21,305 nucleotides of DNA, from positions 1-21,305 of the IMG/VR virus record IMGVR_UViG_3300009285_006881; one strand, 5' to 3'. Positions within the stretch are counted from its first letter, which is position 1. Every line of letters starts with the position of its first letter. The DNA is from a virus. Below are positions 3,463 through 21,270 of the stretch, one piece after another. Under the pieces are notes generated by a model. The model worked only from the letters and a program-made list of their open reading frames with translations, was not told where the DNA came from and did no database searches. The translations under genes and the position numbers were made by a program.

Positions 3463-3465
3463 CCC

Positions 3466-4250: not shown

Positions 4251-4261
4251 AGACGTCGGCC

Positions 4262-5932
4262 ATGGCGATCAAGATCCGCGAGTTGATCACGACATGGGGC
4301 TTCAAGGTCGATTCTGCCAAGGTCGAGGCGTTCGAGAAGCGGCTGACGAGCGTGGTCGGCACGGCCAAGGTCGTCGGCGCGGCTGTGGTCGGCGCGGCCG
4401 GAGGGCTGTTCGCGCTGGCGGTATCGGCCGCCCGCACCGGCGACGACCTCCAGGAGATGGCGCAGCGGACCGGAGTGAGCGTCGAGGCGCTGCAAGAGAT
4501 CGGCTACGCCGCGAAGCTGTCCGGCATGGACATGGGCAGCCTGGAGACGAGCCTGCGATTCATGTCCCGGGCGATGGTGGACTCCCCGGACAAGTTCGCC
4601 AAGCTCGGCGTCAGCATCCGGGACGCGCGGGGCGAGCTACTGCCGGCGACCACCGTGATCGACAACCTCGCGGCCAAGTTCGCGGGGATGCCGGATGGTC
4701 CGACCAAGACCGCTGCTGCCGTCGAGGTGTTCGGCCGTGCCGGCTCGTCGATTATCCCGATGCTAAATCAGGGCGCAGAGGGCCTGCGCAGAATGCGGGA
4801 GGAAGCCATCGCGCTGGGCCTGGTCATGTCGGCAGAGGACGCTGCCGCCAGCGACAAGTTCATGGACTCGCTCGCCGGTCTGGAGGCGGCGGCTACGGGT
4901 ATGCGCAACACCCTCGGGATCATGCTGCTGCCGATGATCCAGAACGTCGTCGAGAAACTCAAGGCGTGGTTCATGGCGAACCGCGAGTTGATCGCGCAGA
5001 AGGTCGAGGCCATCTTCACCGGGATCGGCAAGGCGTTGGAGGTGGTCTGGTCGATCATGTCCGGGCTGGTGCGCGTGGTCGTCTCCGTGGTCAACGCACT
5101 GGGCGGCTTCGGCCGCGTCGCGACGATTCTCTGGGTCATCGCGGGAGCCTTCGCCGCGTGGCAGATCGGCGCGCTGCTCATGTCGTTGACGGCGCTGATC
5201 GGCGCGCTGGGGGCGGTCGGAACCGCCGGACTGATCGCGCAGTTGAAGATCCTGGCGCTGCCGCTCGTCATCGGCGCGCTGTTTCTCCTGGTCGGCGCCA
5301 TCATCGAGGACTTCGTCGCGTTCTTCCAGGGGCGGGCAAGCGTGATCGGCGAGCACATTGACGGCGTGGCGTTCGCCAGCGAGCTCGGCAGGCAGGCCGT
5401 CAGCGACCTCGGGCTGGCAGTCGGGGCGCTGGCGCTGGTTTTCGGGCTCCTGTTCTCGCCGGTGCTCGCGTTCGTCGGCGCGCTCGGCTTGATCGTCGTC
5501 TCGCTCGGCATCGTGCTGGACAACTGGGACGACTTCACCAAGGAGTTCGGCGACGGCCTCGACATGCTCGGCACGTGGTGGACCGAGAAATGGACGGCGA
5601 TGAAGGACTGGTTCGCCACCAACTTCATCGAGCCAATCAAACTCATGTGGCGCGACCTGCGGCGCACCGGAGGCATCGGCGACATCCTCGACTACCTCGG
5701 CGGCGAGGTCGGCAACACGAAGTTCGGCAGTGCGGCTCCGTCGCCCGCCGGTGCGCCATCTGCTGGCGCGGCCGGCGGTAGCAGCAGGACGGTCGGCGTC
5801 CACAACGAGGTGACGGTCAACCTCGGCGGGGATGGCGGAGCGGCGAGCCCGACAGCTGCAAGCGACATCGCCCGCGCCGTGCGCAAGGAACTCGACCGGC
5901 ATGCCGGCCAGGTCGCGGCGGAGTTGGGCTGA
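4262..5932 (+). CDS. Tail tape measure protein
   Basis: 556 residues, ATG 4262, 14 nt after the long chaperone stop, with no strong ribosome binding site. The N-terminus (ITTWGFKVDSAKVEAFEKRL, hydrophobic 31-57, then TGDDLQEMAQRTGVSVEALQ and IGYAAKLSGMD) is typical of tape measure proteins. Two hydrophobic regions follow at about 258-350 and 385-420, which in such proteins help genome entry through the host membrane. A Gly/Ala/Pro linker (490-508) leads to a C-terminal end with VTVNLGGDGG and a helix DIARAVRKELDRHAGQVAAE, also typical. It sets tail length and sits in the tube lumen. At about 0.15 nm per residue the tail would be near 80 nm, assuming most of the chain is stretched. Position after the chaperone supports the call. 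Confidence 0.92.
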   Translation: MAIKIRELITTWGFKVDSAKVEAFEKRLTSVVGTAKVVGAAVVGAAGGLFALAVSAARTGDDLQEMAQRTGVSVEALQEIGYAAKLSGMDMGSLETSLRFMSRAMVDSPDKFAKLGVSIRDARGELLPATTVIDNLAAKFAGMPDGPTKTAAAVEVFGRAGSSIIPMLNQGAEGLRRMREEAIALGLVMSAEDAAASDKFMDSLAGLEAAATGMRNTLGIMLLPMIQNVVEKLKAWFMANRELIAQKVEAIFTGIGKALEVVWSIMSGLVRVVVSVVNALGGFGRVATILWVIAGAFAAWQIGALLMSLTALIGALGAVGTAGLIAQLKILALPLVIGALFLLVGAIIEDFVAFFQGRASVIGEHIDGVAFASELGRQAVSDLGLAVGALALVFGLLFSPVLAFVGALGLIVVSLGIVLDNWDDFTKEFGDGLDMLGTWWTEKWTAMKDWFATNFIEPIKLMWRDLRRTGGIGDILDYLGGEVGNTKFGSAAPSPAGAPSAGAAGGSSRTVGVHNEVTVNLGGDGGAASPTAASDIARAVRKELDRHAGQVAAELG

Positions 5933-6591
5933 TGGCCGCCCTTGACGTGCTGTCGCTGTTCTTCGGCAAGGATCCGCGGACACAACTGTGGACCGCCGAC
6001 GGCATCCGGCTGCCGTGCGATGGCGTGTTGGCCTTCGATCACACCATGGAGTCCGAGATCACGGACTCACCGGTCGAGGACGGATCCAAGATCAGTGACA
6101 GCATCATCCACGCGCCGCGCGAAGCCACGCTGGAGGGCATCGTCAGCGATTACCCGGCCAAGATGCTGGGCGGAGTCCTCTCGGGTGGGCTATCCGGCGC
6201 GGGCATTACCGGCGCGACCGACCTGATCGGTGGGCCACTGGGCGACTTGTTCGGCAAGGAGCGATTCTCGCAGATCGCCTTCCGCACGCTGGAACAGGCG
6301 TGGGAGACGCGCACGGCGCTGACCGTGATCACGCGCATGCGGCCCTATGACGACATGTACATCCAGCGGCTCTCGATCCCGCAGACCAAGGCGACCGCGA
6401 ACACGCTGCGTTTCTCGATGCGCCTGCGGCAGATCAAGACCGTCAGCTCCAGCCTGGTCGCAGTGACCGTCGCGGCCACTGTCACCGCGGCCGCTGCGCC
6501 AGCGCGCAAGGCTGGCCGGCAGCCACCCGCGCCTGCCCCCGCACCCGCTGCCGACCGTGGCGAGTCCATGCTGCACGCGCTCCTGTACTGA
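5932..6591 (+). CDS. Dit-like baseplate protein
   Basis: 219 residues, ATG 5932 overlapping the tape measure stop as TGATG. The middle part shows the Dit-like N-terminal domain of simple contractile tails: GVLAFDHTMESEITDSPVED, GSKISDSIIHAPREATLEGI, VSDYP, followed by a Gly-rich stretch (about 79-105), FRTLEQAWETRTALTVITRM, RPYDDMYIQRLSIPQTKATA and a final strand FSMRLRQIKTV. The last 45 residues are an Ala/Pro-rich low-complexity tail (PARKAGRQPPAPAPAPAA). In related phages this protein links the tube end to the baseplate hub. Its place between tape measure and baseplate plug agrees. Family recognition is from motif memory only. Confidence 0.8.
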   Translation: MAALDVLSLFFGKDPRTQLWTADGIRLPCDGVLAFDHTMESEITDSPVEDGSKISDSIIHAPREATLEGIVSDYPAKMLGGVLSGGLSGAGITGATDLIGGPLGDLFGKERFSQIAFRTLEQAWETRTALTVITRMRPYDDMYIQRLSIPQTKATANTLRFSMRLRQIKTVSSSLVAVTVAATVTAAAAPARKAGRQPPAPAPAPAADRGESMLHALLY

Positions 6592-6593
6592 CC

Positions 6594-6935
6594 ATGCCTA
6601 CACTGATCCCACTCGGAGACCCGACCATCGCTGACCTGGCGGTGACGACGCAGTTGGGCGACGAACTCTACTCGCTGCGCCGAGTCTGGAACGACCGTGG
6701 CGCATGCTGGGCTCTCGATCTGGCGGGTGCCAGCGGCGAGCCGGCCGTACAGGGATGGCCGTTGCGCCTTGGCATGCCGGTCGCACTGGGCGTGGTCGCC
6801 GATGGCGTACCAACCGGCGCGCTGGTGCTGGTGGATGAAGACGGCACCGGCATCGAGTGCGCGCAGATTGACCTCGGCGGGCGATGCAAACTGCTCTACT
6901 TCACGGCCGAGGAAGTCGCCGCGTTGGCGGCATGA
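6594..6935 (+). CDS. Baseplate plug protein (Pam3 gp18-like)
   Basis: 113 residues, ATG 6594, two bases after the previous stop. It has the pattern of the small cyanophage-type baseplate plug family: a first strand with TTQLGDELYSLRRVWNDRGA, CWALDLAGASGEPAVQGWPL, RLGMPVALGVV, TGALVLVDEDGTGIE and the end IDLGGRCKLLYFTAEEV. The W-N-D-R turn followed by W.LDL, and the GR.KLLYF strand, are the strongest signs. The protein probably closes the channel between tube and spike. Its normal length, and its position between the Dit-like and hub genes, support this. Its stop overlaps the next start in ATGA. Confidence 0.8.
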   Translation: MPTLIPLGDPTIADLAVTTQLGDELYSLRRVWNDRGACWALDLAGASGEPAVQGWPLRLGMPVALGVVADGVPTGALVLVDEDGTGIECAQIDLGGRCKLLYFTAEEVAALAA

Positions 6936-7894
6936 CCATGTCCGACGTGCTCGATCCGACCGCGCTGTGGGGGCGACGGGCGGTCGTGACGGTCGGGCCA
7001 CAGGGGCAACTCGGATGGTCCTTCGACAGCCTTCCGCACGGCGACAGCTTCCGCATCGTGTTCGACGTGGAGAAGACGCTGGACCGCACGACGAACAAGG
7101 CTCGCGTCAGCATCTACGGCTTGTCGGCAGTGACCGCGCACGGGTTCGATGTGAACCGGGACTTCCTCGACCTGTCAGCCGGCTTCGGCGAGAACATCGA
7201 GATGATCTATCACGGCGACCTGGCGACGGTGCACACCGAGCGGCGCGGCGCGAGCATGGTCACGGACCTGGAATGCTCGGACGGCGTGCGCAAGATCAAG
7301 GAGGCGAAGGTCGCCAAGACGTTCCCGCGCGGGACGCCACAGGTGAACATCGTGGCCGATGTTGCCGCCACCATCGGCGACCTGAAACGTGACATGCTCG
7401 CATCGATCTCGGCAGCGGTTGCGGACGCGAAGAAGAACGGCATCACGGCCGCGCTTACCAAGTCGTTCACGGCAAGCGGTCCGGCGGCGACCGAGATGGA
7501 CCGCCTCGGCCAGAAGCTCGGCTTCAAGTGGTCGGTCCAGGATGGCGCTGTGCAGGTAGTGCCGAACGGCCAACCACTGCCTGGGACCGCCGTGCTCCTG
7601 ACGCCGTACACGGGGCTCGTGGGCGTGCCTACGCGGCTCGCGCAGACCAAGGGCGAGGACGGCAAGATGCAGGGATTCGACGGATTCAAGGCCAGCTTCC
7701 TGCTGATTCCAGGCGTGACGCCAGGTGCGCTCGTGGCCGTGTCCAGCACGACGCTGCGCGGCGTCGGGCGCGTGCGCAAGGTCCACCTGTCGGGCGACAC
7801 GCGGAGCGGCTGGTTCGGCGGTGAGTGCGAGGTCGAGGAGCTGCCCGGCGTGACCGCGCTGGTCCCGGAGTGGCCGGTCGAGTCGCCGTGGTAG
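6932..7894 (+). CDS. Baseplate hub protein (gp44/gpD-like)
   Basis: 320 residues from ATG 6932, which overlaps the plug stop as ATGA; a second in-frame ATG at 6938 is possible, and an upstream one at 6884 would run deep into the plug gene. The N-terminal strand region FRIVFDVEKTLDRTTNKARV followed by SIYGLS is typical of phage hub proteins. Then come NIEMIYHGDLATVHTERRGA, VTDLECSDGVRKIKEAKVAK, a helical part (about 150-205), GFKWSVQDGAVQVVPNGQ and a last strand region with GRVRKVHLSGDTRSGWFGGE and CEVEEL. The layout resembles the gp27/gpD/gp44 group that forms the trimeric hub holding the spike. The spike gene follows directly. The family is fairly sure; sub-family is not. Confidence 0.75.
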   Translation: MTMSDVLDPTALWGRRAVVTVGPQGQLGWSFDSLPHGDSFRIVFDVEKTLDRTTNKARVSIYGLSAVTAHGFDVNRDFLDLSAGFGENIEMIYHGDLATVHTERRGASMVTDLECSDGVRKIKEAKVAKTFPRGTPQVNIVADVAATIGDLKRDMLASISAAVADAKKNGITAALTKSFTASGPAATEMDRLGQKLGFKWSVQDGAVQVVPNGQPLPGTAVLLTPYTGLVGVPTRLAQTKGEDGKMQGFDGFKASFLLIPGVTPGALVAVSSTTLRGVGRVRKVHLSGDTRSGWFGGECEVEELPGVTALVPEWPVESPW

Positions 7895-7903
7895 GCTTGA
7901 AGC

Positions 7904-8488
7904 ATGGCTGACGACCGCGTGGACGGCTGGGCCGAGTTGACCCGGACGATCATCCGGCTCGCGCGCGCGGGCGTGCTGTGCGGGCTGCCTGGCCGCGTGG
8001 AGCGGTACAGCGCAAGCCCGAGCCCCGTGGCATCGGTGCGGCTGCTGGTCCGCGAGATGCTGCGCGACGGCGCGCTCGCTGAGGATCCTGTGCTGGAGGA
8101 CCTGCCGGTGCTGTTCCCGGGCAACGGCCGGATCGCGTTCCGCTGGACAGTGATGCCGGGCGATCAGGTGTGGGTGTCGTTCTCAGGCCGCGAGTTGGGC
8201 GCATGGATGGCGACGTTGCAGGCGCCGGCGCTGGCTCTCGCGCCGGCGGTAGTAGATCCGGTGGAGCCCTCGATCCACGCCCGGGAGGATTGCGTTTGCT
8301 GGCCGTTCGCGGTGAGCGGCGCCCCGGTGCAGGTGGACGTGTTGGAGTGGATCGGCGCCGTGATTGAGGCTCTCACGGTGGCTGCGCCCAGCTTCGTCAT
8401 CGGCCCGCCGGGCGGGCCGTGGACGCTGGACGCCACGCTGCTCGCCACTCTGACCGCCAGGTTGGCGCAGTTGAACGCGGTGAGGTAG
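7904..8488 (+). CDS. Central spike / puncturing protein with Gp138-like OB domain
   Basis: 194 residues, ATG 7904. Residues about 25-115 fit the Gp138 N-terminal OB-fold domain: GLPGRVERYSASPSPVASVR, LLVREMLRDG, ED..LEDLPVLFPGNGRIAF, RWTVMPGDQVWVSFSGRELG. This domain starts the membrane-piercing spike at the tip of simple contractile tails. The rest (about 116-194) contains WPFAVSGAPVQVDVLEWIGA and a short C-terminal part with GPWTLDATLLATLTARLAQL; there is no long needle helix, so the spike tip is short or supplied by another protein. It follows the hub gene as expected. The upstream TAGGCT (7892-7897), six bases before the ATG, could be a -10 box for a leaderless start, but it overlaps the hub stop. 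Confidence 0.8.
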   Translation: MADDRVDGWAELTRTIIRLARAGVLCGLPGRVERYSASPSPVASVRLLVREMLRDGALAEDPVLEDLPVLFPGNGRIAFRWTVMPGDQVWVSFSGRELGAWMATLQAPALALAPAVVDPVEPSIHAREDCVCWPFAVSGAPVQVDVLEWIGAVIEALTVAAPSFVIGPPGGPWTLDATLLATLTARLAQLNAVR

Positions 8489-8501: not shown

Positions 8502-8870
8502 ATGGCCGAACTGCTCGACCTTGCCGCCGGAGACGACGGCGACCTCGCTGAGATGGTGGACGGCGACCTGGCCCACGTCGAGGACGGCGACGCTCTGGCG
8601 CAGATCATCCAACTGCGACTGGAGACGCCGACGGACTCGTGGTTTCTCGACACGTCGGTCTACGTAGACTACCGCCGCCGCGTGTTCATCAAGGGCGTCT
8701 CGCTCGCCGAGGTGACGTCCGAACTTCGCGGCGCCATCCTGGGCGCGCCGTTCGTGCGCGACATCAAGCGGCTCGACCTGAACTTTGACCGCCCGGCCCG
8801 GCGACTGCAAGTGGCGTTCGTGGCCCGCTCGCGCTTCCGCGAGGTGGGCGCCACGGCGACGGTGGCATGA
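8502..8870 (+). CDS. Baseplate wedge protein, gp25/DUF2634-like
   Basis: 122 residues, ATG 8502, with a GGGGAG at 8493-8498 as a close ribosome binding site. An acidic N-terminus (AAGDDGDLAEMVDGDLAHVE) leads into the gp25-type core: DALAQIIQLRLETPTDSWFL, DTSVYVDYRRRVFIKG, a helix around LAEVTSELRGAILGAPFVRD, and strands IKRLDLNFDRPARRLQVAFV. The order, with ALAQ.I..RL.T..GSWF-like start and the final strands, is that of the T4 gp25 / phage W baseplate wedge family, which joins the sheath's first ring to the baseplate. Location directly before the J-like protein is the standard arrangement. The stop overlaps the next start (ATGATG at 8867). Confidence 0.82.
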   Translation: MAELLDLAAGDDGDLAEMVDGDLAHVEDGDALAQIIQLRLETPTDSWFLDTSVYVDYRRRVFIKGVSLAEVTSELRGAILGAPFVRDIKRLDLNFDRPARRLQVAFVARSRFREVGATATVA

Positions 8871-10564
8871 TGGCGTGGGGCGTCACGGCTGCCGGCTTCG
8901 CGCGCAAGCGCCTGGTGGACGTGCTGGCAGACGTGTACGCCGCGCTTCGGGCCGCGTTCGGCGGCGGCATCCGGCTGGCTGCCGATAGCCGCTACGGGCG
9001 CCTAGCGGGCGTGTACGCCGCACAGGAGGCGAGTCTGTGGGAGGTAGCGGAGCAGGTATTCTGGTCGCAGTATCGAGCGACGGCCACCGGCGTGGCGTTC
9101 GACCTGGCGCTCGCACAGACCGGGCATCGGCGCCTAGCTGCGGAGGCATCGCAGTGCTGGTGCCGTCTGGACGGGACGCAGGCCACCGTGGTTGAGGAGC
9201 CGGCGCAGGTCCGCAATCCGCTCACAGGCGACGCCTACGCGCTGACCGCCGACGTGACCATCGACGCTGCCGACTGCCTGCGCGCAGTGGTGGAGGTCGT
9301 GACTGCCGAGGCGGGCGACTACACGCTCCGCATTGACGGCACCGACTACACGTACACGTCGGTCGGCACCAACCCGCTGGCCATCGCTGCGGGCCTGCGC
9401 ACCGCTCTGAATCTCGGCTACCCGATTACCGCCGTCGCGCTGCTAGCCCGGCAGGTCACGATCGGCGGCAACCATCTGGCCGAGTTCCCGGTCGGCAAGG
9501 GGGCTTTCGTTACGGCCGGCGCGAACCTCGGCTATCGCACCGTCCAGGCGCGCGAACTCGACGGCGGCGACACGGTAGTCACGTTCATGGAGGACCTCGA
9601 CTCGGCGGCGGTCGCGGGCAATCTGCGCAAGGGGCTCGCCGCCAGTTCTGAGGGCTTCGCCGGGCCAGCCCCGCCGACGGTCTACGGGACGCTGACGGTG
9701 GTTCTTGGCTTCCCAGAGCCCGCCGACGAGGCCGCCGGTTACGCGGTGGACCTGTCGGTCCAGGCGGAGCCCGCGCCCGGCGACCTGGACATCACGTCGG
9801 TTGGCTCGCCAGCGTTGATCGAAGCGACCGCGACCGGACCGAAGGATCTGGCGGCCGGCGTGGACATGGAGATCCTCAACGCGGCGATGGGTTGGACGGG
9901 CGCCGTGACCGTGCTCGCCGCTGACGTGGGCCGGAACCGGGAAACTGAGGTCGAGGGGCGCATCCGCGTCGCGGGCGATCTCCAGGTGGCCGGCGCTTCG
10001 GTGTTGGGCGCCATCCGCGCCCGCATCGCACAGGTGGCCAACGTGGACTCGGTGGTCGTCTACCACAACACCGGCGACGCCGCGGACTCGGAAGGGCGCC
10101 CGGGGCACAGCGTCGAGGCCGTGGTCGAAGGCGGCCTGGCGCGCGACATCGCCCAGGCGCTCTTGGAAGCGGTCGCTGCCGGCATCGCCACGTTCGGCAA
10201 CCAGTCCGAAACGGTCTATGACTCGGAGGGCATCCCGCGCGTGCAGATGTTCTCGCGCATCTCGCGCATCCGCACGGTGGTCGAGGTGACGGTGACGGCG
10301 CTTCACGCAGAAGAGGATCTGCCCGATGATGCGGCCGACTTGGTCATCGCCGCCGTGGTCGACTACGGCGACGCTCTCGCCGACGGCAAGGACGTGGTCG
10401 GCCAGCGGTTCATCGGCGGCATCTTCGCGGCGGTGCCCGGCATCGAGGCCATGGCCGTGCTGGTGGATCGCTTCGGCGGTGGCGGGTTGGCTCCGACCGA
10501 GGCCATCGGTCCGCGCGAGCGCGCGGTCTTCGACGCGGCCGACGTGACGGTGGTGGGCCTGTGA
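8867..10564 (+). CDS. Baseplate wedge protein J / gp47-like with inserted beta module
   Basis: 565 residues, ATG 8867 overlapping the previous stop (8870 is an alternative ATG). Its end shows the baseplate J pattern: EVEGRIRVAGDLQVAGASVL, GAIRARIAQVANVDSVVVYH, an RPGHSVEAVVEGGLARDIAQ segment with ALLEAVAAGI, SRISRIRTVVEVTVTALHAE, and the last part with GQRFIGGIFAAVPGIEAMAV. The N-terminus (LVDVLADVYAALRAAFGGGI, a helix up to about 90) is also typical. This wedge protein forms the outer baseplate ring that receives tail fibers. Residues about 193-256 are an inserted copy of the recurrent module (QVTIGGNHLAEFPVGKGAF, VTAGANLGYRTVQA). A preceding segment, about 145-185 (DYTLRIDGTDYTYTSVGTNP), resembles another small phage beta module seen in many virion proteins. 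Confidence 0.85.
   Translation: MMAWGVTAAGFARKRLVDVLADVYAALRAAFGGGIRLAADSRYGRLAGVYAAQEASLWEVAEQVFWSQYRATATGVAFDLALAQTGHRRLAAEASQCWCRLDGTQATVVEEPAQVRNPLTGDAYALTADVTIDAADCLRAVVEVVTAEAGDYTLRIDGTDYTYTSVGTNPLAIAAGLRTALNLGYPITAVALLARQVTIGGNHLAEFPVGKGAFVTAGANLGYRTVQARELDGGDTVVTFMEDLDSAAVAGNLRKGLAASSEGFAGPAPPTVYGTLTVVLGFPEPADEAAGYAVDLSVQAEPAPGDLDITSVGSPALIEATATGPKDLAAGVDMEILNAAMGWTGAVTVLAADVGRNRETEVEGRIRVAGDLQVAGASVLGAIRARIAQVANVDSVVVYHNTGDAADSEGRPGHSVEAVVEGGLARDIAQALLEAVAAGIATFGNQSETVYDSEGIPRVQMFSRISRIRTVVEVTVTALHAEEDLPDDAADLVIAAVVDYGDALADGKDVVGQRFIGGIFAAVPGIEAMAVLVDRFGGGGLAPTEAIGPRERAVFDAADVTVVGL
9443..9634 (+). repeat. Recurrent virion beta module, copy in J-like wedge protein
   Basis: Residues 193-256. 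VTIGGNHLAEFPVGKGAFV aligns closely with sheath copy 1 (VAGNHLDEFLVG); the middle is TAGANLGYRTV in place of STGNDGTYTV, and the end is SAAVAGNL in place of ATVDG.I. Confidence 0.72.
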
Positions 10565-12928: not shown

Positions 12929-13153
12929 GTGGCCGACGTCGCGCGTGATGTAGGATTCCAAGTGGTGCTTGCCGGCGACGATCCGGCTGACGTGCTGATG
13001 GCCGGCCCGGTCGAGCTTGTCTGCGACGGCGGTCTCGGCCTCGGGGGCGCGGCTCACGTCGCAGTCCACCAACCCGGGTTCATCTTCGACCATTCGCCGC
13101 GGGCGATCGCGCACCTGCCGGCGAGCCACCCGCGCACGCGCGCGGAGGCGTAG
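12929..13153 (+). CDS. Small hypothetical tail-region protein
   Basis: 74 residues from GTG 12929, two bases after the previous stop; the frame is open further upstream, but that part is the shadow of the appendage gene. The stop is one base before the GTG of the next gene, so the two are probably coupled. Sequence: VARDVGFQVVLAGDDPADVL, AGPVELVCDGGLGLGGAAHV, then HQPGFIFDHSPRAIAHLPAS. A short beta-rich part is followed by an Arg/Ala end. I know no family for it. The compact spacing and the plausible amino acid mix support a real gene. Confidence 0.55.
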   Translation: MADVARDVGFQVVLAGDDPADVLMAGPVELVCDGGLGLGGAAHVAVHQPGFIFDHSPRAIAHLPASHPRTRAEA

Positions 13154-13154
13154 C

Positions 13155-13928
13155 GTGGCCATCGCCTCCCGCTTCGCTCGGCTGATCGAAGCGCTGATCG
13201 GGCGGCCGACCGGGCACCTGCCGACGTGGGGGCTCCAGGAACTCGAGGAGGTCTTCGACGCGATGGGTTGGCGCCGATCGGTGCTGGGCGCGACGGGGAC
13301 GCTGCTGGAGTTGGTAGGCGCAGACCTCGGGCTCGGGCGCACGTCGCTCGACGACGACGAGTACCGGACGGACCTGCTGATCCAGATCCTAATCAACACG
13401 TCCAAGGGCGAACTGGAACGCATGCAGACCATGATGCGCATGGTGCCCGGCCGCGTGCAGTCGTGGGTGGACGTGCTCCCGCCAGCGTGCATCTCGCTCC
13501 AGTTGCTCGGCACTATCCTGCGACCGGGCACGTGGACGCGGTTTCGCTCGGCGGTTGCGGCCGGCGTCGGCTGCGAGGTCGTGGCGACTGCCACGCTGGT
13601 GCCGATGCGGTTCGGTTCCCTGACGGTCGATCCGCGCACGCCAGCCGGCCGGATCGCGTCGTTGTGGACCATCGCCGGCGTGGTGGTTGGCGGTCCTGGC
13701 GCTGGCGCCTTCGTGCTGACTGGCGACAAGACCGCGCTCTACGACGTGGGCGATCCCGTGAGCGTCGAGGGCAGCGTGGCCGACGACGGCGACTACGAGA
13801 TCACCGGCGCCACATTCGGCGCGGGCGTGACGCAGGTGGATGTCGCCGAGGCTGTGGTCGGCCCGGCGAGCGGCGCGATCCTGTACGGCAAGGCGACCGA
13901 AGCCGGGCGCATGGCGAGCATCCTCTGA
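13155..13928 (+). CDS. DUF2612-like baseplate protein with a C-terminal beta module
   Basis: 257 residues. GTG 13155 lies one base after the previous stop; the frame upstream gives only Arg/Ser-rich shadow sequence. Residues about 23-145 match the DUF2612-type baseplate pattern: ELEEVFDAMG, LLELVGADLGLGRTSLDDDE, YRTDLLIQILINTSKGELER and a hydrophobic continuation (ACISLQLLGTILRPGTWTRF). In related tails such proteins belong to the outer baseplate and usually follow the J-like gene; here three genes lie between them. The C-terminal third (177-246) is a copy of the recurrent module: FVLTGDKTALYDVGDPVSVE, ADDGDYEITGATF, VTQVDVAEAVVG. It has been added as a terminal domain, unlike the internal copies elsewhere. 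Confidence 0.72.
   Translation: MAIASRFARLIEALIGRPTGHLPTWGLQELEEVFDAMGWRRSVLGATGTLLELVGADLGLGRTSLDDDEYRTDLLIQILINTSKGELERMQTMMRMVPGRVQSWVDVLPPACISLQLLGTILRPGTWTRFRSAVAAGVGCEVVATATLVPMRFGSLTVDPRTPAGRIASLWTIAGVVVGGPGAGAFVLTGDKTALYDVGDPVSVEGSVADDGDYEITGATFGAGVTQVDVAEAVVGPASGAILYGKATEAGRMASIL
13683..13892 (+). repeat. Recurrent virion beta module, copy in DUF2612-like protein
   Basis: Residues 177-246. GAFVLTGDKTALYDVGDPVSV followed by ADDGDYEITGATFGAG matches the module's first strand, F.VG turn and NDG.Y.V hairpin; the end (VVGPASGAILY) replaces ATVDG. Confidence 0.68.
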
Positions 13929-13952: not shown

Positions 13953-15923
13953 ATGTCCCAGTACCCGCAGCCCACCGAAGATACCCGCTTTGCCTCCGTG
14001 CTCGGGACCGATCCGATATCGGGCGAGCCAACCAGGGCCGCACTCAGCGCCGGTCGGCGCAATACCGGATGGCTGCACGACGAGTTCTTGCCCGGCAACG
14101 GGGCGAACACGCTCGCCTACGCCTCGCACGTCTGGCGGCTGTACCTCCAGGCGCATGCGATCCGGGTCGCCTCACGCATGGTCGGCGCTCTCGATTCGGA
14201 CCCGGACGGCACCGAGTACCTGGGCGACGGACTGGCGGACAACGTGCCGATCCAGGCGGCCATCGACTCGACGATGGACACGCACGGGATCACCGGCGTG
14301 GTGGCTGGCGCGGGCGGGACACTCACGATCGCGGGTGATCGCGTTGACGACTTTCACGTCGGCCGCACGTTCCACGTCGAGGGCTCGACGGGCAACGACG
14401 GCGCCTACGTCGTGACGGGCGTGGCCCTCGCGGCCGGCGATACTGTGCTGACCGTGGCGAACGTGCCCGACGCCACGGTGGATGGCGACGTAATGCTCTA
14501 CCGGGGCGGCGTGGTGCAGTTGAGCGAGGGGCTGTTCACGCTGACGGCCGGGATAGTCCTGCGACGAAACGTCACTCTGCGGGGTGCAGGCAAGCGCCGG
14601 ACGGTCCTGCGCGTGGCCGGCGCGAGCGAGGTGGGCGGCGATGCTGCCGATTTTATCGTCATCAGCGCGTCAAGCACCGATCATGTCGGCGTCGAGTGCC
14701 TCACGGTGGACGGCAACGGCGGCGATCTCGCTATCCACGGCAACGACGGGATTGAGTTCTCCACGGTGGACGCCGGTGTGCTGCGGGAGGTCGAGGTCTT
14801 CAGGTGCCATTCCATCGGGGCGCCCGGAGCCGAAGGCATCGGGGTGCGCGTGAGTTCGACATGCACGGGCATCGTCCTCGACGACGTCGCGGCCGAGGAC
14901 TGCGATACCTACGGCCTCCTGATCGGCGGATCCGGTCATCGCGCGCGGGGGCTGTCGGCCATCGGCTGTGACTATGAGGGATGCTCGTGGAGCGCCGACG
15001 CAAGCGACCTCGACGGATACTTCTCGTCAGGGTGCGCCGGCGGCATCCAGATCGACGCGACCGAGTCGACGTTTCGGCACATGCGCACGACGGCCGCTGT
15101 GGCGCCGTTGCCTCACGGGATCGTCATCAGCGGCGCCGCGGCGCGCTGCGACTTCTCCGACTGCTGGTCCTACGCCAACGACGGGCACGGGTTCTACGAC
15201 ACCAGCTCGGTCGGAGAGCACACCTTCGCGCGCTGTCGTGCGACCGACAACCTCGACGGGGGATTCGTCAGCGACGATGGTGGGCGCAACCACTACGTCA
15301 CTTGCACCGCCAGCGGCAACACGGCTGACGGGTTCGAGCAGGCAGCAGGCAGCGACGGTCTCAACTCGTGGGTCGACTGCCTCGCCAAGGACAACGGCGT
15401 CAACGGCTGGCTGCTCACCGCGGGCACGAAGAACCGCCTCGTCAACTGCCGAGCGGAAGGCAACGCAGCATGGGGCGTCAAGAGCTACGGAGCGAAGACG
15501 ACCTTCACCGGCTGCGTGGCCGAGGGCAACGGCGAGGAAGGCGTGTTGCTCAGCACGGGCGCGGAGCAGAAGTGGCTTGGCGGGCGCATCGATGAGAACG
15601 ACAAGGGCGGGATCTGGCTACACCAGAGCGACGAGTCCGAGGTGCGCGACTGCCATCTGACCGACAACGGCCAGACCGGCGCCGATGCCTACGACGCGAT
15701 CGTGGTCGAGGACGCCGACCAGTGCGGGGTGGTCGGGAACACCTTAAGCCAGCACGGCGCTGGCATCCGGTACGGGGTCAACCTGCTAACGACTGCCCAG
15801 AACGTGAAGTTCTACGGCAACCAGATCGCGGCGGGCGCCACGGGCGCTTACAACGTGGGCGGCGTTGCGACAACGTTCTCCATGGGCATCGATGTCGCCG
15901 TAGCGAATCTCACATGGTGGTAG
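13953..15923 (+). CDS. Tailspike / receptor-binding protein, right-handed beta-helix, with inserted module
   Basis: 656 residues, ATG 13953 behind a good AGGAG site. Residues 1-105 are a putative virion-binding head (TRFASVLGTDPISGEPTRAA, WRLYLQAHAI) and end in the classic DNVPIQAAIDS start of pectate-lyase-3-like folds. The continuation GGVVQLSEGLFTL, VLRRNVTLRGAGKRRTVLR (186-220) is the usual next part, but residues 113-185 of the recurrent module have been placed between them. From about 220 to 620 lie parallel beta-helix coils of about 23 residues with a regular cysteine ladder (C404, 428, 451, 476, 499, 521, 567, 591) and repeated [AR].GN/DN turns. Such proteins bind, and often cut, surface polysaccharide; no catalytic residues can be assigned here. 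It likely determines host range. Confidence 0.88.
   Translation: MSQYPQPTEDTRFASVLGTDPISGEPTRAALSAGRRNTGWLHDEFLPGNGANTLAYASHVWRLYLQAHAIRVASRMVGALDSDPDGTEYLGDGLADNVPIQAAIDSTMDTHGITGVVAGAGGTLTIAGDRVDDFHVGRTFHVEGSTGNDGAYVVTGVALAAGDTVLTVANVPDATVDGDVMLYRGGVVQLSEGLFTLTAGIVLRRNVTLRGAGKRRTVLRVAGASEVGGDAADFIVISASSTDHVGVECLTVDGNGGDLAIHGNDGIEFSTVDAGVLREVEVFRCHSIGAPGAEGIGVRVSSTCTGIVLDDVAAEDCDTYGLLIGGSGHRARGLSAIGCDYEGCSWSADASDLDGYFSSGCAGGIQIDATESTFRHMRTTAAVAPLPHGIVISGAAARCDFSDCWSYANDGHGFYDTSSVGEHTFARCRATDNLDGGFVSDDGGRNHYVTCTASGNTADGFEQAAGSDGLNSWVDCLAKDNGVNGWLLTAGTKNRLVNCRAEGNAAWGVKSYGAKTTFTGCVAEGNGEEGVLLSTGAEQKWLGGRIDENDKGGIWLHQSDESEVRDCHLTDNGQTGADAYDAIVVEDADQCGVVGNTLSQHGAGIRYGVNLLTTAQNVKFYGNQIAAGATGAYNVGGVATTFSMGIDVAVANLTWW
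14289..14507 (+). repeat. Recurrent virion beta module, copy in tailspike
   Basis: Residues 113-185. GGTLTIAGDRVDDFHVGRTF, VEGSTGNDGAYVVTGVA, VLTVANVPDATVDGDVMLY: very close to sheath copy 1, including 23 identical bases (14463-14485 with 1583-1605). Confidence 0.9.
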
Positions 15924-15939
15924 CGAGCGAGGGACACAG

Positions 15940-16182
15940 ATGGCTCACGAGACCGATGACCCGACGACCGAGCGCGTAAATGTCGCGGCGCCCGCCGCCA
16001 TCCCGCGCGGACGCAATCGGCGCCCGCCGTTGCCACCCGCGGCGGTCACGGTGCCCGTCGAATGCGGTCCGATCGACCTGCCCGACGGCAGCCGCGTTGT
16101 GGTCGTGTTTGTCCACCCCGACCGCGCCAAGGCGGTCCGCTACGCTGCTGACGGGCGCCTCCTCAGGTCGAGCGGGCTCTAG
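15940..16182 (+). CDS. Small hypothetical protein after the tailspike
   Basis: 80 residues, ATG 15940, 16 bases after the tailspike stop, with a GAGGGA-type ribosome site at 15930-15935. A disordered basic/Pro-rich start (RVNVAAPAAIPRGRNRRPPL) leads to a short strand region VECGPIDLPDGSRVVVVFV and HPDRAKAVRYAADGRLLRS. I recognise no family. It is the last gene of the tail operon. Its TAG stop shares a CTAG with the stop of the convergent minus-strand gene. A small tail fiber accessory or assembly protein is possible but not shown. Confidence 0.55.
   Translation: MAHETDDPTTERVNVAAPAAIPRGRNRRPPLPPAAVTVPVECGPIDLPDGSRVVVVFVHPDRAKAVRYAADGRLLRSSGL
16179..16182. other. Shared CTAG: overlapping stop codons of convergent operons
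   Basis: The palindrome CTAG contains the plus-strand TAG (16180-16182) and the minus-strand TAG (16181-16179). There is no space for a terminator between the two operons. Confidence 0.9.
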
Positions 16183-16598
16183 CGAGGCCGCGCCACATCT
16201 GCGCCGTGACGCCGCAATTTGCCCAGCGCGAGACCCTCCATCTGGCGAATCCTCTCGCGGGTGACGTTGAGCAACTCTCCCGCGTCCTCCAGCGTTACGC
16301 CGTCCCGTGCTGCCACGTCCAGCGCGCACGTCTCGCTGAGTTGAGTCGGGTCGCGGTCCGGAAAGTTCAGCTTGATCGTTCCGGTGTCGCGCATCACGTC
16401 GAGGAACAGATGATGGCGGCAGGAGACGAATGGGCATGGCCGAAGCCCGTCCACGCAATCAGCTCGCGTTCGCGGCCGGGCGGTTGCCACGTCAACGTGG
16501 GCAAGGCGAGCACCGGCGCGCATCTCGGTCGCGCTCAGTGATCTGTGGCCGGGGATAGTGACTGGCCGGTCGCCGCGCTGGCGCTTCCGGCGTGCCAT
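16179..16598 (-). CDS. Sigma-70 region-4-like HTH protein with a cysteine cluster
   Basis: 139 residues from ATG 16598, which overlaps the previous gene's stop (TGATG on the minus strand); further upstream starts would run into that gene. The C-terminal part VTLEDAGELLNVTRERIRQM, EGLALGKLRR (101-130) has the sigma-70 region 4 helix-turn-helix pattern (TLEEIG..L.VTRERIRQIE..AL.KLR) that reads -35 elements. Regions 1-3 are absent, so it cannot be a full sigma factor. In front lie C48, C55, C60 with H62-H63 (RADC, RPCPFVSCRHH) and C91, which could bind zinc, and IKLNFPD. I recall similar CPFVSCRHH / SIKLNFP proteins in myxobacteria and phages, but cannot verify. A DNA-binding regulator or an RNA-polymerase partner is likely. 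Confidence 0.72.
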   Translation of the reverse strand: MARRKRQRGDRPVTIPGHRSLSATEMRAGARLAHVDVATARPRTRADCVDGLRPCPFVSCRHHLFLDVMRDTGTIKLNFPDRDPTQLSETCALDVAARDGVTLEDAGELLNVTRERIRQMEGLALGKLRRHGADVARPR

Positions 16599-18904
16599 CA
16601 GGTCGTCCAGATGTACGTCGGCGTCCGGCCACGGCAGGTCGGCTGCCCCGCGTAACCGGCGCTGACCAGCCACGCGCTCGCCCGCGCGAACTCAGCGTCC
16701 GTCGCGAGCTCGACGCAGAGCACCGGGTGTTGCTCCCGCAGGATGCGCGCCGCGCTTCGGAGCACGGCATCCTGCGCGCCCTCCACGTCGATCTTGAGCA
16801 CGCCGACCGGACCGCAGATCAGATCGTCAAGCCGCACGCAGCGGACATCGCCGCCGCCTGCGACGGCCGACATGCCGAGGTTGCCAGCCGGGCCATCGTC
16901 GACTCGGACTGATTGCCACAGGTCATGGACGGCGGCCTCAAGGACGACGACAGGGACGCGCGCATGGTGCGCGAGGTTGGCGCGCAGCAGGACGGCGGAC
17001 GCTGCGCGAGGCTCGATAGCGACCACGCTGGTTGCCTGCTTCGCGAGCGCCGCAAACGGCACGGCATGCGTGCCGACGTAGGCACCCACGTCGATCCACG
17101 CGCCCGGCCGGCCGGACTCCAGTAGGATGCCGATCACGTCGGACTCGTACCACGCGCCGTCCATGAGGCGGCCGACATGGTCGCCCGCGAACACCTGCAT
17201 CTCCGCGCGCCAGTCGCCCAGGAGTGCCGTGACGGTCGCGTGGCCGTTCGCGCGTGGCGATATCGCCAGCGGACGCCGTTGGCGGCGGCGTTGCGACGAC
17301 GGGCTCAGCGCGCCGGGCCGGGGCGACTCGGTAACGCTCTCCAGGAATACCATTCTGCCCACGTCGGCATCGTCTACGTGGTCGCCAGCAACGGTGGCGG
17401 TCCCGTGCGCGCACGAGACGACCGGCAAGACGGGCGTGGGCGCGTGCCGCACGGCCGCTGGCGCAGTGGCGTGGACCGTCCACTCGCCCAGCGACGCGAC
17501 CACCTCTGTCTGGCGCGCGCTCGTGTCGCGGGCGCTGCCGTCACGCCGCTTGCAGGCGCGGTAGATGCCGCCGGCCTGCACCTCGGCGCAGTGGGTCAGC
17601 CAGTCGGCGCTGTGCGCGACGCATACCACCGGCACGCGCTGCCGCTGGCATGCCACGCCCAGCCAGATGTCCGCCATGTTCGCCTCCGGGAAGTCGGCCG
17701 GCGACAGGCTGATCGTGCTCGCATGGTAGGCGCAGCAGGACGTGGCGACCAAATGGACTGGCAGATCCTCGGCGACGCCAAGCGCAGAGTGGAACACGTC
17801 GCGGCTGCCGTAGTACCCGCCTGGCCCGAGCGGATGGTGCAGAGTGACGCCGTGGACGCCGACGACGGCACGCCTGCCGTACCGCTCGATGGATGCGACC
17901 ATGCCCGCCGCGTAGTCCGGCGGAAACACGATGTCGTCGTCGCAGACCATGTGGTAGCCGGCCACGTCAGCCGACCACCAGAACTTGCGCGCGTCGCCGA
18001 GGTCGCCGTGGTCCTGGCTGGTCGCCACGCGCACGCGCGGATGGTCGAGGAAGTCGGGCACGTCCGAGTAGCCGTTGAGGAACACACGCACGATGTCCAC
18101 CTGCGGCAGCAGCGACTCGACTGCCCGGCGCAGCGCATCGCGCCGTTCGGGGATCGAGCACAGCGAGGCGGACACCATCTCAGCCGGCCCGGGCGGCGCA
18201 ACCTCGATGGGCTTGTGCAGTGCGAAGGGCGGCAGGTGGCCGTTCATGACGCTTTGCCTGTCGGGCGGGTGCCAGACCATCGAGCGGTCGGTGTGGTAGA
18301 GCGTGCGGCCGGCGTCGACCAATCGCCGCGACATCTGCGCACCGGTCCCAGATCCGCGCGTGGCGCGACACCGGCGGATCGGATCCATGCGCCATTCCAG
18401 CGCGTCCATCGTGGAGCGCGGCGCGAGATAGGTCTGGTCCACCCACTGCGTCTGGACCACCTCGCCGAGCGGCACCGGCTCGAAGTCCGTCCACCCGATG
18501 TTCCCGAGTTGCGACGTGGCTCGCCAGAGCGCGAGCGTCGCCTTGCGCGGATCGTCGATGCTGTGCCACAGCCACCATGCCTGCGCGATGCAGTCGGGTA
18601 GGATGCGGTGGTCGTCATCGAGGCGCAGCAGGTAGTCGTCGGCGGCCATGCGCTCGCGCAGCCAAGCGAAGACCTCGCTTTGCAGGATGGCGTATCCTTC
18701 GCGCCCGTGCGGCGCGCTCGTGCGCTGGTATGTCCAACCCGGAAACGCGGCGATGAACGCACGCACCGGCGCGTAGTCGGCCAGGCTGGCGTCGTCTACG
18801 ACGTGGACGATGAACGCCGGGCAGACGCGCTGGCGCGACAAGTCGCGCAGCAACCAAAGCATGCGGTCGGGCCGCTGGTGCGTGCAGACGACGACGTGGA
18901 TCAC
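16598..18904 (-). CDS. Trifunctional fusion: glycosyltransferase, glycosyltransferase, FkbM methyltransferase
   Basis: 768 residues from GTG 18904, with AGGAGG (18916-18911) six bases upstream and a GTGA overlap with the previous gene; the open frame further upstream is Arg-rich shadow. Domain 1 (about 1-235) is GT-A-like: VVVCTHQRPDRM 4-15, VVDDAS 35-40 and a metal-binding LRLDDDH at 93-99. Domain 2 (about 243-440) is another GT-A: SLCSIPERRDAL 248-259, FLNGY 275-279, GDLGDARKFWW and CDDDIVFPPDY 321-331. Domain 3 (about 570-760) is an FkbM-type methyltransferase: WIDVGAYVGTHAVPF 603-617, AIEPRAASAVLLRANL 629-644 and VLKIDVEGAQDAVL 702-715. A linker (about 480-565) holds a degenerate copy of the virion module. 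It probably transfers and O-methylates sugars; the acceptor is unknown. Confidence 0.82.
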   Translation of the reverse strand: MIHVVVCTHQRPDRMLWLLRDLSRQRVCPAFIVHVVDDASLADYAPVRAFIAAFPGWTYQRTSAPHGREGYAILQSEVFAWLRERMAADDYLLRLDDDHRILPDCIAQAWWLWHSIDDPRKATLALWRATSQLGNIGWTDFEPVPLGEVVQTQWVDQTYLAPRSTMDALEWRMDPIRRCRATRGSGTGAQMSRRLVDAGRTLYHTDRSMVWHPPDRQSVMNGHLPPFALHKPIEVAPPGPAEMVSASLCSIPERRDALRRAVESLLPQVDIVRVFLNGYSDVPDFLDHPRVRVATSQDHGDLGDARKFWWSADVAGYHMVCDDDIVFPPDYAAGMVASIERYGRRAVVGVHGVTLHHPLGPGGYYGSRDVFHSALGVAEDLPVHLVATSCCAYHASTISLSPADFPEANMADIWLGVACQRQRVPVVCVAHSADWLTHCAEVQAGGIYRACKRRDGSARDTSARQTEVVASLGEWTVHATAPAAVRHAPTPVLPVVSCAHGTATVAGDHVDDADVGRMVFLESVTESPRPGALSPSSQRRRQRRPLAISPRANGHATVTALLGDWRAEMQVFAGDHVGRLMDGAWYESDVIGILLESGRPGAWIDVGAYVGTHAVPFAALAKQATSVVAIEPRAASAVLLRANLAHHARVPVVVLEAAVHDLWQSVRVDDGPAGNLGMSAVAGGGDVRCVRLDDLICGPVGVLKIDVEGAQDAVLRSAARILREQHPVLCVELATDAEFARASAWLVSAGYAGQPTCRGRTPTYIWTT
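17339..17407 (-). repeat. Degenerate half-copy of the virion beta module in the glycosyltransferase linker
   Basis: Residues 500-522: GTATVAGDHVDDADVGRMVF LE aligns with the tailspike's GTLTIAGDRVDDFHVGRTFHVE. The second half (STGNDG.Y.V) is absent and replaced by an Arg/Pro-rich stretch. Confidence 0.5.
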
Positions 18905-20079
18905 GATGCGCCTCCTGGCCGGCGGCAGACGGTGAGCCCGGACGAGTGCGCGTTTAGCACCTCGAATCCGGCGGCGATGTAGCGGTCGTTCCAGTCGCGC
19001 CCGGGCGCCCAGACGTGGCCGTGATCGCCGGGCGGGTCGAGTCGCGCGGTGGTGATGCCCACGATGGGCACGTCGAGATATGCGAGCCCGCCCGGGCGCA
19101 GGAGTCGGAAGCACTCGCGGATCGCGGCATCTGCGTCAACGATGTGCTCCAGCACGTGCGAGGCGACGATCGTGCCGAATGACTCCGCCGGCAGCCTGGT
19201 GTGCGTAAGGTCGGCGGTCACGTTCATGCCGTGCCGAGCATCGATATCGAGCGTGACGTATCGGGCGCCGAACGCGCGGCGAACGATGGATTCCTTGACG
19301 GCGACCTCGGGCGCCACGTGGAGGATCGGTCCCGACAGCCCGTGTCGCCGGGTCATCAGCACCATGCGGCGGTGCCGGCGTAGCGCGCCGCAGTCGCGGC
19401 AGCGCTCGTACTCGCGCCCGCGGTACGCGCTGGCCGCGCGGTGCGACCCGCACACGACACAGCGGACAGCCCATCCGTTGCCGTCCACGTGGATGGATCC
19501 GAAGTCGTCGCCGAGCACTGCGCGCACCGCACGGCGCACCGGGTAGTCCTTCTCAGGCGCCCAATCCCAGTCGTCGCCCACCAGCGCCGTATCCGGGAAT
19601 GCGGCGAGAATGGCCCGGGTCTCGGCGACCGTGGCGTTGTACCCGTGGCTGGAATCGAGGTAGACCAGCGCCGGTGCAACGCCCTCTCGCGCGCACTCGG
19701 CGATGGCCGCGAGCGTATGCGCCTGCATCGGGATCAGCCGCGCACGATGGGCGCCGCAGTTGACCAGGAACGTCTCGCGAACGCCGGCATCGACCACCGG
19801 CAGCAGGTGCGGGTGGCGCGACGCGATCCACGGTCGGATGATCGCGGCGTCCCAGTGGTCGACCGCGATCACCGTTGCCATGGGCGCGTTCGCCAGCAGG
19901 TGTCGGGTGCTCTTGCCGAGCCACGCCCCGAGCTCGAGGATCGCGCCGTCGCCGACGATCTGACAGGCGTCCGTCAGGATGCGCGCCGTGCCCTCGTCCA
20001 GCCACCCGTGGTCGACTCGCGGGACATCTGGGCGCACGGACGGCCAAGGGTGAGCGTCGCGAAGCGTGGCGAGTGACAT
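18901..20079 (-). CDS. Two-domain methyltransferase joined by a zinc ribbon
   Basis: 392 residues from ATG 20079; an in-frame GTG at 20097 is an alternative, and the sequence further upstream is shadow of the divergent gene. Domain 1 (about 20-200) is a class I SAM methyltransferase of the type 24/CmcI-like kind: ILELGAWLGKST 47-58, VDHWDAA 73-79, LDSSHGY 141-147, VGDDWDW 167-173. Residues 207-230 form a zinc ribbon (CVVC...CRDC, C207, C210, C227, C230). Domain 2 (about 245-390) is a methyltransferase-11-like enzyme: ILHVAPE 252-258, TLDID 276-280, ADLTHTRLPAESFGTIVASH and VLEHI 289-313, LRPGG 327-331. Both SAM motifs look intact. It is first in the minus operon, overlapping the glycosyltransferase fusion by four bases, so it likely acts on the same glycan. 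Confidence 0.8.
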   Translation of the reverse strand: MSLATLRDAHPWPSVRPDVPRVDHGWLDEGTARILTDACQIVGDGAILELGAWLGKSTRHLLANAPMATVIAVDHWDAAIIRPWIASRHPHLLPVVDAGVRETFLVNCGAHRARLIPMQAHTLAAIAECAREGVAPALVYLDSSHGYNATVAETRAILAAFPDTALVGDDWDWAPEKDYPVRRAVRAVLGDDFGSIHVDGNGWAVRCVVCGSHRAASAYRGREYERCRDCGALRRHRRMVLMTRRHGLSGPILHVAPEVAVKESIVRRAFGARYVTLDIDARHGMNVTADLTHTRLPAESFGTIVASHVLEHIVDADAAIRECFRLLRPGGLAYLDVPIVGITTARLDPPGDHGHVWAPGRDWNDRYIAAGFEVLNAHSSGLTVCRRPGGAS

Positions 20080-20128
20080 TTGCCCGGAGGCTACCACGCT
20101 TGACAGCGCATATGGACCCTCCGAAGCT
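20080..20128. promoter_or_regulatory. Divergent intergenic region, likely two-way control
   Basis: 49 bp separate the starts of the minus modification operon and the plus receiver-domain gene. It holds a perfect TTGACA (20100-20105, plus strand) but no convincing -10 at 16-18 nt, and a 6 bp inverted repeat CGGAGG (20085-20090) / CCTCCG (20118-20123) that could be an operator. Confidence 0.35.
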
Positions 20129-20716
20129 ATGGCGGTGCGCGTCCTCCTGGTCGACGACAACCCCGCGATGGCCGCGGCCGTGCGCCGCGCGCTGCCGGAG
20201 GCGGAAGTCCTGTCGAGCCTGTCACCGGTGGACGCCTCGAGCGCGACCGGATGCGACGCGGCGATCGTGGATCTCGTGCTGGGCGACGGCCGGCACGGGC
20301 TCGACGTGGCGCGGGAGATCGCGCGGGTCTGCCGGGTTGTCGTGATCAGCGGGCACCAGCGGCCGCACGGGTGCGAGTTCCCGTTTCTGGCGAAGCCGTT
20401 CGCTGCCGGCGAGTTGCGCCGCGCGTTGGGATTGACGGAGCGCGCGCCGTCGCCTATCGTGTCGGAAGTGCCCGTGACACTTACCTCGCCAGCGTCCCCG
20501 TCGAACATCCTGACAGCGGTGTTCACGCTGCTGATCGCGACGCTCGGCTACTGGGCGGCGCGCAACGACACCCGTATTGACGACGTGGCCGGCGAGCAGC
20601 AGCAGGTATCGAAGGAGGTCGCGGAGGTCCGCGGGCTGCTGCGCGGGCAACTGTCCGCGATCGACAAGCGGCTTGAGCGCATCGAGGACAGCCTCGCCGA
20701 GAAGCGCGCGCCGTAG
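20129..20716 (+). CDS. Receiver domain fused to a transmembrane segment and coiled coil
   Basis: 195 residues from ATG 20129; an in-frame ATG at 20066 lies inside the divergent region and its extra residues do not look like a receiver start. Residues 1-101 are a response-regulator receiver domain: VRVLLVDDNP with acidic D9-D10, phospho-acceptor D48 in AAIVDLVLGDG, S74 in VVISGHQ and K89-P90 in FLAKPF, so phosphorylation is possible. A 25-residue linker leads to one transmembrane segment (about 127-143, ILTAVFTLLIATLGYWA), then a charged coiled coil (about 150-192, with VSKEVAEVRGLLRGQLSAID). No DNA-binding or enzymatic output domain is present. TM plus coiled coil recalls small phage lysis proteins. 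An internal GTG at 20474 behind GGAAG would give an 80-residue membrane protein alone. No kinase is in the window. The role is unknown. Confidence 0.8.
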   Translation: MAVRVLLVDDNPAMAAAVRRALPEAEVLSSLSPVDASSATGCDAAIVDLVLGDGRHGLDVAREIARVCRVVVISGHQRPHGCEFPFLAKPFAAGELRRALGLTERAPSPIVSEVPVTLTSPASPSNILTAVFTLLIATLGYWAARNDTRIDDVAGEQQQVSKEVAEVRGLLRGQLSAIDKRLERIEDSLAEKRAP

Positions 20717-20754: not shown

Positions 20755-21270
20755 ATGCTCATCCACATCGGCCCGCACGGCGGACCCGGCGGAATCGTCA
20801 TCGACCTGTACGTCGATATCTCGGAGGACGGCCACCGGCGCGTCCAGAACTGCGACCCGCCGCAGGGCTCGGCGCTGATCGACGAGGGCGAGCCGTACGA
20901 CTTCGGCGCGCTCGATCTCGCGCTGGCGACCGCCGAGGGGCGCGACAGCATCGGCATCGGCCCCGGCCCGGAGGGCTACGGCGCGCTGCTGGTGGACGGC
21001 GAGCCGGTCGGGTACTTCCCGGTCGTGCAGTTCATGCCGGCGGTCGAGCCCGAGCCAATCGGCGATCCGGGACCCGACGACCCGCAGGAGATCGAGGTCA
21101 TGGTGCCGGCGGGCTGCTCGGCCGTCTCGGTGGTGCTGTCTGACGCCACCTACCTCAAGCTCGACATCGGCGAGATCAGCGTCAACGTCAGCGTGCGCAC
21201 CTGCGACCCGACCGATCCCGAGTCCGAGGACGTGACGGTCGCCGAGGCCCTCCTCGCGCTGCCGGTGTAG
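20755..21270 (+). CDS. Acidic hypothetical protein
   Basis: 171 residues, ATG 20755, 38 bases after the previous stop, without a clear ribosome site. I recognise no family. The start IHIGPHGGPGGIVIDLYVDI is Gly-rich with strands, followed by GEPYDFGALDLALATAEG, a GPGPEGYGALLVDGEPVGYF segment, a Pro/Asp-rich linker (EPEPIGDPGPDDPQE) and a second beta-rich part, AGCSAVSVVLSDATYLKLDI, GEISVNVSVRTCDP. Three cysteines are present. Overall charge is strongly negative and no signal peptide is visible. Two small beta domains joined by a linker is the most that can be said. The steady codon pattern and lack of an equal competitor on the other strand support a real gene. Confidence 0.6.
   Translation: MLIHIGPHGGPGGIVIDLYVDISEDGHRRVQNCDPPQGSALIDEGEPYDFGALDLALATAEGRDSIGIGPGPEGYGALLVDGEPVGYFPVVQFMPAVEPEPIGDPGPDDPQEIEVMVPAGCSAVSVVLSDATYLKLDIGEISVNVSVRTCDPTDPESEDVTVAEALLALPV

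Follow-up and report, generated by a model that had tools for sequence, protein, structure and literature searches.

A phage receiver domain with a predicted membrane tether and coiled coil, and a recurring receiver/membrane-coiled-coil pairing in phage records

Introduction

What output could a phage obtain from a phospho-receiver domain that is joined to a membrane segment and a coiled coil? This question is raised by a gene near one end of an IMG/VR virus record, 21,305 bases long, which was analysed at its full length and is referred to here as the window. Receivers and kinases of phages were as such known before: they are present in protein-family libraries as families of 'unknown function' (phrog_731 and phrog_857), and also among predicted viral structures. 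Our literature search on phage two-component modules, with most subscription papers beyond its reach, found no paper that treats them as a system. What is added here is the REC-TM-coiled-coil protein and the pairing of a receiver with a membrane coiled coil in phages.

Results

Genomic context of the receiver gene

The window contains a myovirus tail module with sheath, tape measure, baseplate hub and wedge genes. A beta-helix fibre-like protein is encoded at 13953-15923 (+ strand) and is followed, ahead of the receiver gene, by a glycosyltransferase/methyltransferase block (16598-20079, - strand). This block specifies a protein with Glycosyltransferase-2 and FkbM methyltransferase domains plus a double-methyltransferase protein, and it probably has a role in glycan or virion modification. 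The product of 16179-16673 (- strand) is a small protein that carries a helix-turn-helix resembling sigma-70 region 4 and may be a late transcription factor.

The gene for P0001, a 195-aa REC-TM-coiled-coil protein, extends from the ATG at 20129 to the stop codon at 20716 (20129..20716, + strand) and diverges from the minus-strand block across 49 intergenic base pairs. The GC content at codon positions 1, 2 and 3 (0.73, 0.49 and 0.90) resembles that of other genes in the window, which argues that this ORF is coding. A clear Shine-Dalgarno sequence is absent at ATG 20129 and likewise at the start codons that lie in frame shortly before the membrane segment. An internal start that would give rise to a separate TM-coiled-coil protein was ruled against, since no Shine-Dalgarno-like signal was detected. 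By sequence, a -35-like TTGACA hexamer is located in the divergent intergenic region (20100..20105, + strand), with no convincing -10 element at the usual spacing from it. The next gene (20755..21270, + strand) encodes a 171-aa protein for which neither a family nor relatives were found, and the record ends 589 bp past the P0001 gene. No recognisable kinase, second receiver, holin or endolysin was found in the window, and this includes the search for a kinase or second receiver upstream of P0001.

Some further features of the window were observed. A domain of ~60 aa (F.VAGDH..DF.VG..F.V.GSTGNDGTYTV...) is repeated within several tail proteins, one of them the sheath, where it forms an insert; it was detected at 252-1010, 1010-3052 (twice), 8867-10564, 13017-13928 and 13953-15923 (+ strand), and possibly at 16598-19114 (- strand), and it overlaps phrog_1236 'head protein'. 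In addition, the motif GGTAGnnT, at 4243, 7890, 8484 and 13935 on the + strand and at 20095 on the - strand, is positioned 6-11 bases before the start codons of five genes. Several of these five genes have no good Shine-Dalgarno sequence, and the motif may be a -10-like element for transcripts that are nearly leaderless.

P0001 has a receiver domain with an intact phosphorylation site

Residues 1-102 of P0001 (20129..20434, + strand) were assigned as a receiver domain on the basis of Pfam, an AlphaFold model, VIA-align and invariant site residues. As claimed in an earlier note on this DNA, all receiver residues are present, namely D9 (20153-20155), D10 (20156-20158), D48 (20270-20272), S74 (20348-20350) and K89 (20393-20395; all + strand). 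In an alignment of 21 receivers, D10, D48 and K89 are invariant. The Pfam Response_reg match (E 2.3e-5, 25 bits) stays slightly below the curated cut-off of 30.2, because the alpha-2 region and the beta-4-to-beta-5 stretch are short in the alignments.

The AlphaFold2 model, for which the 21-sequence alignment was used in place of a 2-sequence run with a pLDDT of 41, had a mean pLDDT of 87.7, with values of mostly 93-96 in the receiver. Foldseek with this model retrieved 310 PDB chains at E<=1e-3, and VIA-align matched residues 1-104 to a solved receiver, the receiver domain 4qpj_C (Z 14.4, rmsd 2.1 over 103 residues). The alpha4-beta5-alpha5 region is the customary output face of receivers. 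In P0001, the beta4-beta5 segment is shortened in the alignments and the model (residues 75-85; 20351..20383, + strand), and these residues form no helix in the model, meaning that alpha-4 is missing. Alignments and model together show a predicted receiver fold at the N terminus of P0001 with the full five-residue phosphorylation site, minus alpha-4.

The C-terminal half combines a membrane helix with a coiled coil

The receiver is followed by a low-confidence linker (residues 103-122; 20435..20494, + strand; pLDDT about 50-60), a membrane helix assigned by insertion energy (residues 125-143, SNILTAVFTLLIATLGYWA; 20501..20557, + strand) and a coiled-coil helix assigned by heptad score and model (residues 145-193; 20561..20707, + strand). 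On the rough home-made scale that we applied, the insertion energy of the membrane segment was -1.0, a value reached by 14 of 2000 shuffles, while related phage coiled-coil/TM proteins ranged from -1.8 to +1.2 and soluble controls from +2.3 to +6.7. A weak transmembrane prediction, a possibility that the earlier note had raised against its own reading, is therefore not what was found: the segment is comparable to those of the related phage proteins and clear of the soluble controls. The heptad score of the coiled coil was 0.71, and residues 123-193 form a single unbroken helix in the model. According to Pfam and the model, the C-terminal half, consisting of the membrane segment and one helix, has no DNA-binding domain. 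Insertion energy, heptad score, model and Pfam thus bear out the earlier description, in which one transmembrane segment and a coiled coil stand in the place of a DNA-binding part.

Within 15 residues of the membrane segment, P0001 has no lysine or arginine on the receiver side versus two on the coiled-coil side. The same count in L124, a fusion protein from another virus record, gave one versus four. The more positive coiled-coil side in both proteins argues against a topology with the receiver inside and the coiled coil outside.

The TM-coiled-coil half of P0001 weakly matches phrog_17237 (E 0.015), an 83-aa family that matches this part only. Matches to Jedunavirus proteins, some of which are annotated as Rz-like spanins, were at E 0.07 or worse. 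At this level of sequence similarity, neither set of matches makes P0001 a spanin.

Relatives of P0001 match the receiver, not the whole protein

Searches of annotated phages, plasmids, IMG/VR and a genome set of 84,980 species yielded no whole-protein homologue of P0001, the matches being confined to the receiver. Likewise, the matches in 289 genomes of one bacterial class spanned the receiver and never the whole architecture. Bacterial homologues with the full architecture, from which the earlier note would have suspected an ordinary chromosomal function, did not turn up. Near relatives in IMG/VR were not retrieved via the tail tube and gene 20755, and P0001 was unmatched in PADLOC. None of 50 sheath-related virus records contained a receiver in a search that, run identically, recovers the window's own receiver, which indicates that the P0001 gene is not a constant feature of phages of this type. 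Many receiver matches in the 'phages' collection that lie within unannotated or bacterial-looking records were left out of the analysis, and the hybrid-kinase receivers on viral contigs (L090, L091/L096, L097/L118 and L117) were not counted toward the pairing described below.

Phage records carry a recurrent set of kinase, receiver and membrane coiled-coil genes

Virus records with two-component genes were gathered by scans using receiver and kinase alignments. A recurrent order in these records was a PAS (or GAF) histidine kinase, an Rcp1-like receiver, a receiver with a helical tail (REC2; 171-275 aa, phrog_731-like) and a CC-TM gene, the product of which has a coiled coil and one TM segment near the C terminus (124-189 aa). 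Carriers of this set are L101/L110 (37.7 kb), L105/L108 and L106/L109 (195 kb), L111 (169 kb), L125 (186 kb) and L114/L115 together with the named Microcoleus phage My-WqHQDG (OR578706; L121); L112 has the REC2 and CC-TM genes only. REC2 is located directly 5′ of the CC-TM gene in six phage lineages, most often with a PAS histidine kinase and a further receiver upstream of it, and in all six the CC-TM gene either overlaps REC2 or starts at most 10 bp from its end. As a background, the TM/coiled-coil criterion picked out 16 of the 1318 ORFs in the loci of the sheath relatives. The L114 and L121 modules sit among replication genes.

The link between receiver and CC-TM gene is frequent, not universal, in phage records: L104 has a kinase-REC-REC arrangement with no adjacent CC-TM gene, and a CC-TM partner is absent from L126, L133 and several receiver-only records. 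The searched records contain 1 to 3 receivers each, unlike a bacterial chromosome. Profile searches (Terminase and Phage_sheath_1) detected a terminase in L112 and L110 and a sheath protein in L112 and L125. These profiles support L128 weakly. L128 also has matches to a minor tail protein and to a repressor of phage type, and L104 encodes a head morphogenesis protein. The phage status of the other module contigs rests on the IMG/VR classification, neighbouring genes and the low receiver number.

More histidine kinases, some with receivers and none with a coiled-coil partner, were observed in virus records of 42-548 kb (L126, L127, L129, L132 and L133). A stand-alone receiver of 123 aa (L102 2995-3366, and L103) was observed in a 94-kb virus record, with neither a kinase nor a coiled-coil partner in the flanks seen.

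The TM-coiled-coil parts of the relatives weakly match the holin profile phrog_689 (E 4e-4) and the Rz-like spanin profile phrog_739 (E 3e-5). These matches are tempered by the fact that coiled-coil profiles attract chance matches.

Receiver, coiled coil and membrane segment are fused in three domain orders

The search for REC-TM-coiled-coil proteins in phages that the earlier note had proposed revealed three further lineages with receiver, coiled coil and TM segment in one chain, L124 having the order of P0001 and the two others having different orders. Specifically, L113 encodes a REC-CC-TM protein (P0003, 265 aa), L124 a REC-TM-charged helix protein (4231-4998, 255 aa; IMGVR_UViG_3300022719_000283, a 618.7 kb virus record) and L128 a TM-CC-degenerate REC protein (3009-3863, 284 aa), the TM segment of which scores weakly. 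A kinase and a second receiver adjoin each of these fusions. In L128, the kinase gene set (3009-8010) is flanked by a tail gene region on one side and a phage-repressor-like gene on the other, and it includes a multi-TM ORF with no family match (7429-8010) that could be a holin.

Receiver trees were built with 29 and 30 receivers; the L128 receiver, too divergent to be placed, was omitted from the second of them. The REC2, L113 and L124 receivers clustered together (91/84 and 95/88), separate from the REC1 group. In the best tree, the P0001 receiver was placed weakly with bacterial receivers, outside REC2 (88/78 with L002), and a single clade of P0001 and REC2 was not rejected (p-AU 0.19). Judged from these trees, the architecture of P0001 may be convergent, that is, a separate invention.

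Discussion

As an architecture, the phosphorylation switch at the membrane that the earlier note envisaged is well supported by sequence and model, and its combination of parts is found again in other phages. We tentatively interpret P0001 as a membrane-anchored phospho-receiver, the single-chain form of the phage pairing, with its output at the envelope instead of at a promoter. P0001 would then be the one-chain version of the receiver/CC-TM pairing. A histidine kinase, either the host's or one of the phage's own encoded beyond the contig end, would phosphorylate D48, and the ensuing change in the receiver would alter the oligomer or the contacts of the membrane coiled coil. The envelope would be the site of the output, for instance through control over when a holin-, XhlA- or spanin-like event takes place at the membrane. 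A natural output at the membrane is indicated by the gene set, since its receivers have no DNA-binding domain and its last gene encodes a membrane coiled coil. In addition, a direct partnership of receiver and TM-coiled-coil protein would be supported by the occurrence of fusions in several domain orders. Counting against our interpretation are a window without a kinase, second receiver, holin or endolysin, the position of P0001 outside REC2, the charges around its membrane segment, the order of coiled coil before TM in the unfused modules and the lack of a receiver in the sheath relatives.

The proposed coupling to lysis and to a host kinase fared less clearly. A role of P0001 in lysis is plausible, the link being suggested by the weak holin and spanin profile matches of the relatives; against it stand the lack of a holin or endolysin in the window and the location of L114 and L121 among replication genes. 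A host kinase is unneeded in most relatives, which bring their own, and the P0001 contig ends 589 bp downstream of the gene.

Alternatively, the membrane-held receiver might act as a decoy or phosphate sink that drains or blocks phosphotransfer from host kinases, with the TM-coiled-coil part merely localising and oligomerising it. We regard this as unlikely. The phosphorylation site is intact, the window is without a kinase, and the nearest receivers by tree and search are bacterial and include hybrid-kinase receivers, so that docking to a host kinase is conceivable; moreover, the phage LSL4 protein PIT4 is reported to affect several host two-component systems (PMC10714779). However, most of the related phage pairings carry their own kinase and receiver, and a sink would have no need of a partner coiled coil. 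Rather improbable as well is that P0001 keeps the site but works constitutively at the membrane, as an adaptor or scaffold in, for example, tail assembly or host takeover. The missing alpha-4, part of the usual output face, and the L128 receiver, which has lost the acidic pair and the lysine, would fit a mere docking module, but P0001 keeps five of five site residues, and bacterial receivers with an equally short segment exist.

That the ORF represents two proteins, with an assembly error or internal start splitting the receiver from an 80-aa TM-coiled-coil protein, appears very unlikely. It could draw on the GTG codons 111, 114 and 116 upstream of the TM segment, on the match of the 83-aa phrog_17237 to the TM-coiled-coil part only and on the charge pattern, which would fit a coiled coil inside; yet all three GTG codons are without a Shine-Dalgarno match, the codon bias is that of one gene, and L124 has the same fused order. 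Least credible of all would be a cREC-like enzyme. Divergent receivers of this sort are encoded by phages and have been proposed to process cyclic nucleotides or ADP-ribose products (PMC7824862). At E<=0.1, however, P0001 matched only Response_reg in Pfam and not cREC_REC (PF20274), and the modules of its relatives have histidine kinases, with which cREC domains are described as never co-occurring (PMC7824862). The cREC domains are a different thing from receivers of the P0001 type.

The receiver/membrane-coiled-coil pairing is recurrent and is fused in three domain orders, from which we derive the hypothesis that some phages govern a membrane event by phosphorylation. Should lysis be the event in question, phosphorylation would offer phages a new means of timing their exit from the cell. 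In its broadest form, the idea would be that diverse phages carry their own histidine kinase circuit, with a membrane-anchored coiled coil instead of a promoter as its output, and that P0001, as a one-chain form of possibly separate origin, lets the phage sense the state of the cell and, in response, set off or restrain an event at the membrane, for instance lysis; we consider this broad version somewhat unlikely. The pairing merits study outside this window.

Compared with known systems, the receiver of P0001 shares its short beta4-beta5 stretch with bacterial receivers, including the hybrid-kinase receivers L090, L091, L093 and L094 and the stand-alone receiver L095. Both L090-L095 and the Sinorhizobium medicae receiver 2rdm have the receiver fold and the site residues of P0001 but, unlike P0001, no TM segment or coiled coil C-terminal to the receiver. 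Conversely, Rz-like i-spanins and XhlA/holin-like small phage proteins combine one TM segment with a coiled coil, as does P0001, but are without a receiver domain, and their similarity to P0001 is at noise level (E 0.07 at best). An Rz-like i-spanin has a TM anchor at its N terminus and a coiled coil in the periplasm, and it works together with an o-spanin and an endolysin. P0001 shows the order of TM and then coiled coil, but the charges point to the other side, the similarity is not significant, and no endolysin was recognised in the window. The phage gene set (L121, L105, L111 and L125) resembles P0001 in joining a receiver without a DNA-binding part to a coiled-coil protein with one TM segment, but it consists of separate genes, has the coiled coil before the TM segment and includes its own kinase and second receiver, whereas P0001 is one chain with the TM segment first. 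L113 and L128 have all three elements in a single chain, as in P0001, but in other domain orders and with an adjacent kinase, and the L128 receiver, unlike that of P0001, lacks the acidic pair and the lysine. L124 shares the order of receiver, linker, one TM segment and charged helix with P0001 at 25% identity, but its receiver is full-length with alpha-4 and belongs to the REC2 group, and its kinase and second receiver are located directly downstream.
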